Origin: Candidatus Gallispira edinburgensis
GTDB lineage: Bacteria > Bacillota > Clostridia > Lachnospirales > CAG-274
Direction of reading: 5' to 3'
NCBI GenBank assembly: GCA_904395805.1
Contig: CAJFNV010000007.1
Span: forward strand, 1-64,000
DNA length: 64,000 nt
Part shown: positions 45,672 through 62,048 of the stretch, in pieces
Layout of the letters: the number at the start of each line of letters is the position of its first letter
Position numbering within the stretch: the stretch's first letter is position 1
The notes under the pieces: model-generated
The model's database searches: none
The model's input: only the letters and a program-made list of their open reading frames with translations
Told to the model about the DNA's origin: nothing
Translations under genes and position numbers: made by a program

Positions 45672-45707
45672 AAAAAAAGAGCTGAAATCACAAAAGTATT
45701 TCAGCCC
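45672..45707 (-). terminator. Terminator of the asnB-HIT transcript
   Basis: GCTGAAAT pairs with ATTTCAGC, followed by a seven-T run on the minus strand. It lies beyond structured repeat family 2 copy A, which should thus be part of the transcript's 3' end. Confidence 0.8.
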
Positions 45708-45721
45708 CATGTAATTATAAA

Positions 45722-45975
45722 TTTCAATTTAACGCACTGTGCAAATTTTTTAGAGTAACTAAAACCCCACCCATGCCCCGCCGCCGTCGAGCGTAGCGAA
45801 GCTGGCGATAGCGGGGACTGAACACCCCTTTGTGCTCATCATCCAAATCCAGCAAAAACCTTTCAGGCACAAAGGTCGATAAGGGGGTGTGGGGAATATC
45901 GAAAATTCCCCTTGCTTTTGGTACTTTTCCGGAAAAGTACATAAAACTTTGACTTACTTTTCAAAAGTAAGAACT
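45722..45975. repeat. Structured repeat, family 2, copy A
   Basis: This element of about 250 bases is unusually GC-rich for the region and folds into a row of hairpins: CCCCGC/GCGGGG, CCTTTGTGC/GCACAAAGG, GGGGAA/TTCCCC around TATCGAAAA, GTACTTTT/AAAAGTAC and CTTACTTTT/AAAAGTAAG. A diverged copy with preserved pairing lies at 61797-62048. A 72-codon open frame inside it looks accidental. Confidence 0.75.
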
Positions 45976-45976
45976 A

Positions 45977-46384
45977 TTACAAATTCTTCTTTATTTTTTC
46001 AACAATTTCCGTAACCTTTTCAGCCTCAGCCTCAATTCCGCCGAACTTAATATCCACACTGTCATTATTAAATCTCGGCAGTACATGAATATGGAAATGG
46101 AAAACAGTCTGACCTGCAGCCTCTCCGTTATTCTGAATAACATTTACGCCGTCACAGTTTGTTGCTTTTTTGACTGCTCCCGCAATTTTCTTTGCTGTTG
46201 CAAAGCCCTTTGCAGTAAGCTCTTCAGGCATTTCAAAAATATCAGCATAATGATGCTTGCATATAACAAGGCTGTGTCCTATATTGCCCGGATTTGCATC
46301 AAATATTACCTTGAAATCATTATCCTCATACAATGTAGTTGAAGGTATTTCCCCATTAGCTATTTTACAAAAAATACAATCCAT
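45977..46384 (-). CDS. HIT-family nucleotide hydrolase/transferase
   Basis: The 135-residue protein has the histidine triad FHFHIHVLPRF near residue 97 and the N-terminal IFCKIANGEIPSTTLYED block of the Hint/HinT branch. These enzymes hydrolyse adenosine phosphoramidates or related nucleotides. It follows asnB by 19 bases, in the same transcript. Confidence 0.92.
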   Translation of the reverse strand: MDCIFCKIANGEIPSTTLYEDNDFKVIFDANPGNIGHSLVICKHHYADIFEMPEELTAKGFATAKKIAGAVKKATNCDGVNVIQNNGEAAGQTVFHFHIHVLPRFNNDSVDIKFGGIEAEAEKVTEIVEKIKKNL

Positions 46385-61796: not shown

Positions 61797-62048
61797 CTAA
61801 ATTCCTGTTTAACGCACCAACCAAAACAATTTTCTCAACTAACTTCCCCAACAACTTCCCCCGCCTAGCCGCATCGTGGCGTTAAGGGCGGGTATCCCCT
61901 TTGGACAACAAAAACTAAAAACAGCTAAGAATTTCCGTGTCCAAAGGTCGTTGGAGGGTGCGGGAACTATCGAAAAGTTCCCGCATCTTTGGTACTTTCT
62001 TCAAGAAAGTACATAAAGATTTGACTTACTTTATAAAAGTAAAATAAT
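61797..62048. repeat. Structured repeat, family 2, copy B
   Basis: The element parallels 45722-45975. Its stems are CCCGCC/GGGCGGG, CCTTTGGAC/GTCCAAAGG, CGGGAAC/GTTCCCG around TATCGAAAA, GTACTTTC/GAAAGTAC and TTACTTT/AAAGTAA. The sequence of the paired arms differs from copy A while pairing is kept. Confidence 0.75.

Follow-up and report, generated by a model that had tools for sequence, protein, structure and literature searches.

A widespread palindromic repeat of gut Clostridia that looks like mobile DNA rather than a working RNA

The repeat described here is real, widespread and without a name in the family libraries searched, and it recurs in the genomes of gut Clostridia. Two copies, A and B, were studied in the window, a DNA stretch of 64,000 nt from the genome designated G000. 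We conclude that the element is probably a mobile palindromic DNA of the same kind as BOX, REP and bcr1, small, modular, non-coding and non-autonomous. The observations which support this assignment are multicopy dispersal, empty orthologous sites, near-pure Watson-Crick covariation, a conserved loop and spacing, nesting and a species-specific head.

The element has a length of about 250 nt. Copy A extends from 45718-45971 and copy B from 61798-62043, both on the plus strand. The common order, spacing and loops of the two elements, already noted in the preliminary description, were confirmed by reading both copies. On the plus strand a 22-nt head is followed by a linker of about 40 nt, the GC-rich hairpin H1 and then four further hairpins, H2, H3, H4 and H5, with fixed or nearly fixed spacing. 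H2 comprises 9 bp with a loop of about 31 nt, H3 9 bp, and H4 and H5 8 bp each. The H3 loop is conserved in the element as ATCGRAA and reads ATCGAAA in copies A and B. The start of the element lies upstream of H1, at the head (45718-45739 in copy A, 61798-61819 in copy B). The head of copy A reads TAAATTTCAATTTAACGCACTG, and that of copy B matches the consensus TAAATTCCNRTTTAACGCACYA perfectly.

In copy A, H1 (CCCCGC...GCGGGG with an inner GCC/GGC stem) is located at 45776-45816 and H2 (CCTTTGTGC/GCACAAAGG, 31-nt loop) at 45827-45875. H3 follows at 45889-45913 as GGGGAAT-ATCGAAA-ATTCCCC with its outer two pairs broken in this copy. H4 (GTACTTTT/AAAAGTAC) occupies positions 45921-45940, and H5 (CTTACTTTT/AAAAGTAAG, 45953-45971) forms the end of the element. 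In copy B, H1 (CCCGCC...GGCGGG) was found at 61860-61892. The covariance model described below placed the remaining hairpins of this copy at 61898-61947 (H2, CCTTTGGAC/GTCCAAAGG), 61960-61984 (H3, GCGGGAACT-ATCGAAA-AGTTCCCGC), 61992-62012 (H4, GTACTTTC/GAAAGTAC) and 62026-62042 (H5, TTACTTT/AAAGTAA). An outer H2 pairing of CACCCC with GGGGTG, which folding of copy A had suggested, was dropped, since it is not preserved in genome G011. The compensating arms reported earlier are exact: CCTTTGTGC/GCACAAAGG is replaced by CCTTTGGAC/GTCCAAAGG, and GGGGAA/TTCCCC by GCGGGAAC/GTTCCCGC around TATCGAAAA.

The gene context had also been described correctly, with copy A in the 3' region of the asnB-HIT transcript and copy B between convergent genes. 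The end of copy A, which runs antisense to the HIT gene, lies 5 nt away from the stop codon of this gene (45977-45979, minus strand). The copy sits between this stop codon and an intrinsic-terminator-like hairpin of the operon (GCTGAAAT/ATTTCAGC, then a T run; 45681-45705, minus strand), which is beyond the element. This hairpin was read from the sequence and is absent from the output of the hairpin scan, which had a loop limit of 8 nt.

Thirteen sequences, with copy B left out, served to build a covariance model of H2-H5. In a search of the window this model recovered copy B with 125.6 bits (E = 4.7e-25) and copy A with E = 5e-28. Next in the window came the opposite strand of copy A itself, as an echo of its palindromes (E = 0.69). 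In the training alignment of 13 sequences both sides of a pair had changed in 48 cells compared to a shuffled mean of 16.9, and 0 of 500 shuffles reached 48. Sliding the pairing partners abolished this signal. The covariation seen in two copies persists in the larger, class-wide set of 68 distinct copies, with both-side changes in 219 cells against 58.1 for shuffles and at most 62 for slid partners.

Strong covariation together with a conserved loop and spacing is also what a structured RNA with a fold under selection would offer, either as a cis-acting 3'-UTR element or as a small RNA. Folding of copy A as RNA points the same way, with the plus strand beating its shuffles (z -3.1; minus strand z -2.2). 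Copy B folded as DNA reached z -6.6 against shuffles. The composition of the stems argues against an RNA. Within 60 normal-length copies the three best-aligned helices, H2, H3 and H4, were used for a pair count, which yielded 1524 Watson-Crick pairs, 4 G-T, 1 A-C and 8 other pairs. An A-C pair is the minus-strand equivalent of G-U. Steps through G-U are therefore nearly absent on both strands, whereas the control of 22 distinct tRNAs from the same fetched loci carries 8.1% G-U (38/467). Standard pairs of the 68 distinct copies changed on both sides in 219 cases and on one side in 8; these change counts, like the pair counts, span related sequences rather than independent events, and the contrast is nonetheless large. 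The stems themselves are diverse, with 12 different H2, 17 different H3 and 12 different H4 stems in the list of 60 copies. The arms vary as whole blocks (CCTTTGTGC, CTTTTGGGG, CCTTTGAGG, CCTTTACGC, CCCTTGCGG) with the exact complement opposite each. This pairing pattern agrees with a constraint on DNA or with a process that copies it, and the element resembles a palindrome of DNA more than a functional RNA. Rfam 15 gave no match in the window at the gathering threshold and none that was credible at E values up to 1 around copy A, again a point against an RNA.

The distribution of the element is broad. The genome of the window (2.5 Mb) contains about 13 copies, based on 13 model matches. Other genomes yielded 66 (G011), 24 (G001) and 17 (G003) matches. 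Up to 66 matches and tandem arrays in a single genome are difficult to reconcile with a structured RNA. The element was found in 13 of 48 genomes of the family and in 24 of 392 genomes of the order. For the class-wide search a shorter H3-H4 model was applied to 391 genomes drawn evenly from the class. The H3-H4 core was present in 41 of these genomes, representing 32 of 223 genera. The preliminary observation was right, and its extent goes beyond what two copies could show. Distant copies have the same plan with different stem sequences. A pattern search of named records retrieved 43 stretches, all from uncultured Clostridia MAGs and many labelled 'Lapin'. The exact H3 pattern gave no copy in the viral contigs of IMG/VR.

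At least four positions that hold the element in G000 are short or empty in relatives, where gene names were assigned by sequence resemblance and by the neighbourhood as read. Little or nothing separates the ribF and acyltransferase genes in G004 and G005, and in G000 a gap of 310 nt between them holds the element. Between ylmH and divIVA the seven genomes compared (six congeners and G011) have about 10-25 nt, against 546 nt with the element in G000. The junction of thrS with its neighbour gene is short in G001, G002 and G004 and split by the element in G000. The metG/tatD junction is short in G004 and G005, with the element in G000, G001 and G011. In G004 the HIT/DUF1015-type gene pair (L151) shows a terminator-like hairpin directly after HIT and no element. 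For copy B the two adjoining genes differ between relatives too, so that a usable empty site was not available. Absence from the orthologous positions examined speaks for insertion of mobile DNA and against a structured RNA. The flanks of the empty sites in the relatives are too diverged to define any duplicated target bases. No target duplication was readable in the comparison of G001 with G002 and G006 either, where the region is rearranged with breaks near the repeats. In L076 (G001:C14) the order of collinear blocks differs from the G002 contigs C48 and C134 and the breaks lie near copies of these repeats, as if they had served as recombination sites.

In all 11 copies scored in G000 the 3' end of the element points towards a gene's 3' end. 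This constant adjacency to gene 3' ends in the same relative orientation would suit a 3'-UTR element, and it is not predicted by transposition alone. Across all genomes the orientation is mixed, with 31 opposite/opposite and 19 same/same among the tandem cases, which disfavours an RNA function. The orientation bias was consequently rejected as proof of a 3'-UTR role, as it is strong in G000 and does not hold across genomes. A prophage-like region of G003 (L071, G003:C18:1-20000) carries ten intergenic copies, which all lie on the plus strand and in most cases run against the phage genes; its terminase, portal and head-type genes were assigned by reading. An integron-like array was considered for G003:C18 on account of this shared orientation of ten copies and discarded, because the region shows no cassette structure and instead represents a prophage-like operon with repeated insertions.

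The head and body of the element behave as separate modules. The head TAAATTCCNRTTTAACGCACYA occurs in 172 copies in G000 (106 forward, 66 reverse) with 0 matches for a reversed control pattern. It was not found in G001, G002, G004, G005 and G006, and G003 contained one weak match with 3 mismatches. Most of the heads examined precede other palindromic bodies. The sequence before H1 differs by lineage, each lineage having its own. Many contigs of G000 stop no more than about 100 nt away from a head, which seems to break the assembly. In G011 the 3' module H4-H5 was found alone and in arrays, and truncated as well as tandem copies of the element were observed. Moreover, stems of the element contain insertions of two other palindromic repeats, a further finding that would not be expected of a structured RNA. 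One of them, TTCAGCACTTTC...GGTGCAATR with a length of about 60-70 nt, was repeatedly seen inside stems or at stem bases (L027, L028, L029 and L084 in G000, L035 in G011). The other, a third short palindromic repeat (CTGGTCGTATCACTNCGTGATACTGCTCGCC...), lies inside the element at L039:480-667 and L040:2184-2371 of G011 and is apparently flanked by AGGG copies. In kind, not in family, the element is a BOX-like modular interspersed repeat: it is dispersed, intergenic and non-coding and consists of reusable modules.

The preliminary description had left the choice between a structured RNA and a hairpin-based mobile DNA. Its second half is favoured by the dispersal, the empty sites, the nested insertions, the occurrence in both orientations and the burst of heads. 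Its first half is weakened by the near-total Watson-Crick exchange with hardly any G-U, and we regard a structured RNA as quite improbable. The accompanying statement that covariation means a selected fold was not supported. Template switching between hairpin arms can yield multi-base paired changes in one event (PMC8794818), and to infer a selected fold from covariation is therefore unsafe. One apparent loop inversion adds to this. Three species of genus g236 share the stem of H3 and differ in its loop, which is CTCGCCAA in L319 and ATGGCGAG in L321 and L323. Judged from these sequences, the difference appears to be a near inversion, which would be another expected footprint of template switching.

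Carried further, this argument would turn the element into a mutational by-product, i.e., palindromes kept perfect by template switching and spread by recombination and replication slippage without dedicated recognition or selection. Whole-pair changes without intermediates are the expected footprint of template switching (PMC8794818), and the near-inverted loop and the truncated and tandem copies agree with such an origin. It leaves the dispersal to unrelated loci and the constant order and spacing of the hairpins unexplained. It does not account for the directional conserved H3 loop either. Among the loops listed no inverse of the dominant loops AATCGGAA, ATCGGAA and ATCGAAA was present. Since these dominant loops are never inverted, something preserves the direction of the loop. 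A pure by-product of mutation is thus unlikely in our opinion.

For a mobile palindromic DNA, our preferred explanation, the following mechanism can be proposed. The unit would consist of the species-specific 5' head and a body in which five palindromes follow one another. While the DNA is replicated or transcribed, this body would extrude as successive hairpins of DNA, and an enzyme acting in trans may recognise the hairpin shape, the conserved H3 loop (ATCGRAA) and the head, and may copy or move the unit to intergenic spots, often right after a stop codon within an operon. Transposition, the enzyme, the extrusion of hairpins and the recognition of the loop are all elements that we infer. Template switching would re-copy one arm onto the other. 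As the shape would matter and not the stem sequence, and with such arm-to-arm copying, the stems could drift as whole Watson-Crick pairs and stay perfect. Effects on host genes would be secondary, via hairpins in the co-transcribed mRNA. Besides the uniform orientation in G000, one site does not fit easily. At the metG-tatD junction three genomes from two genera carry diverged copies (L024 in G000, L201 in G001, L230/L033 in G011), which could reflect an old insertion, a hot spot or retention for function.

A further point against mobile DNA is that the search, which covered the Y1 domain, tied no transposase to the element. The Y1 (IS200/IS605) transposase domain gave 0 matches in G000 and was absent from G004 and G006, all of which carry the element; these assemblies are 77-98% complete, so a missed Y1 gene is possible in one of them and unlikely in all three. 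Conversely, the Y1-rich genomes G057 (13 Y1 matches) and G008 (10) do not contain the element. A Y1 transposase as driver was ruled against by its absence from the three carriers. No terminal inverted repeats of the MITE type were seen either, as the head and the H5 end are not mutual inverted repeats. A REP/BIME-type element with a RAYT (Y1 tyrosine) transposase as its mover would likewise be palindromic, intergenic, multicopy and often clustered. The Y1 distribution and the lack of a GTAG or CGTC tag next to the terminal hairpin of copies A and B make this very improbable. A bolder proposal, which we put forward only tentatively, is a class-wide family of mobile DNA in Clostridia for which hairpin shape and the conserved loop, not the stem sequence, serve as recognition signals. 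Such a family would have a mover new to palindromic repeats and would pair a conserved body with a species-specific head in each lineage. The mover, if found, may reveal a new mode of transposon-end recognition.

Independently of the mover, the element provides a large natural data set on the joint evolution of hairpin arms under shape selection versus template switching. It also cautions against covariation as the sole, and usual, proof that an RNA is functional, since mobile DNA palindromes can produce it. A look for G-U pairs, nearly absent here, is a simple test which helps to separate such palindromes from functional RNA.

Among known systems, REP/BIME sequences are extragenic palindromes that RAYT transposases are believed to mobilise in the form of single-stranded hairpins (PMC3733652). 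The element shares their palindromic and extragenic nature. It differs by its length of about 250 nt compared to 20-40, by window copies without a GTAG/CGTC tag and by a genome without Y1 transposase. The bcr1 repeat of the Bacillus cereus group is a dispersed mobile repeat of about 155 bp in which paired substitutions keep the predicted structure. By this description it resembles the element, a dispersed repeat with a structure kept by paired substitutions, and differs from it in length and host. Hairpins maintained by template switching would explain compensatory multi-base changes that keep stems perfect; this is a mutation mechanism described for RNA genes, not a repeat family (PMC8794818). 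BOX of Streptococcus pneumoniae (boxA-boxB-boxC) is modular, intergenic and non-autonomous with extensive secondary structure, is probably parasitic, may alter the expression of co-transcribed genes and is linked to ISSpn2 through terminal inverted repeats (PMC3049150). The element resides in other hosts, combines five consecutive hairpins with a species-specific head and had no ISSpn2-type partner that we could find. By description it is likened to BOX as a small modular interspersed repeat that is structured, intergenic and non-autonomous.
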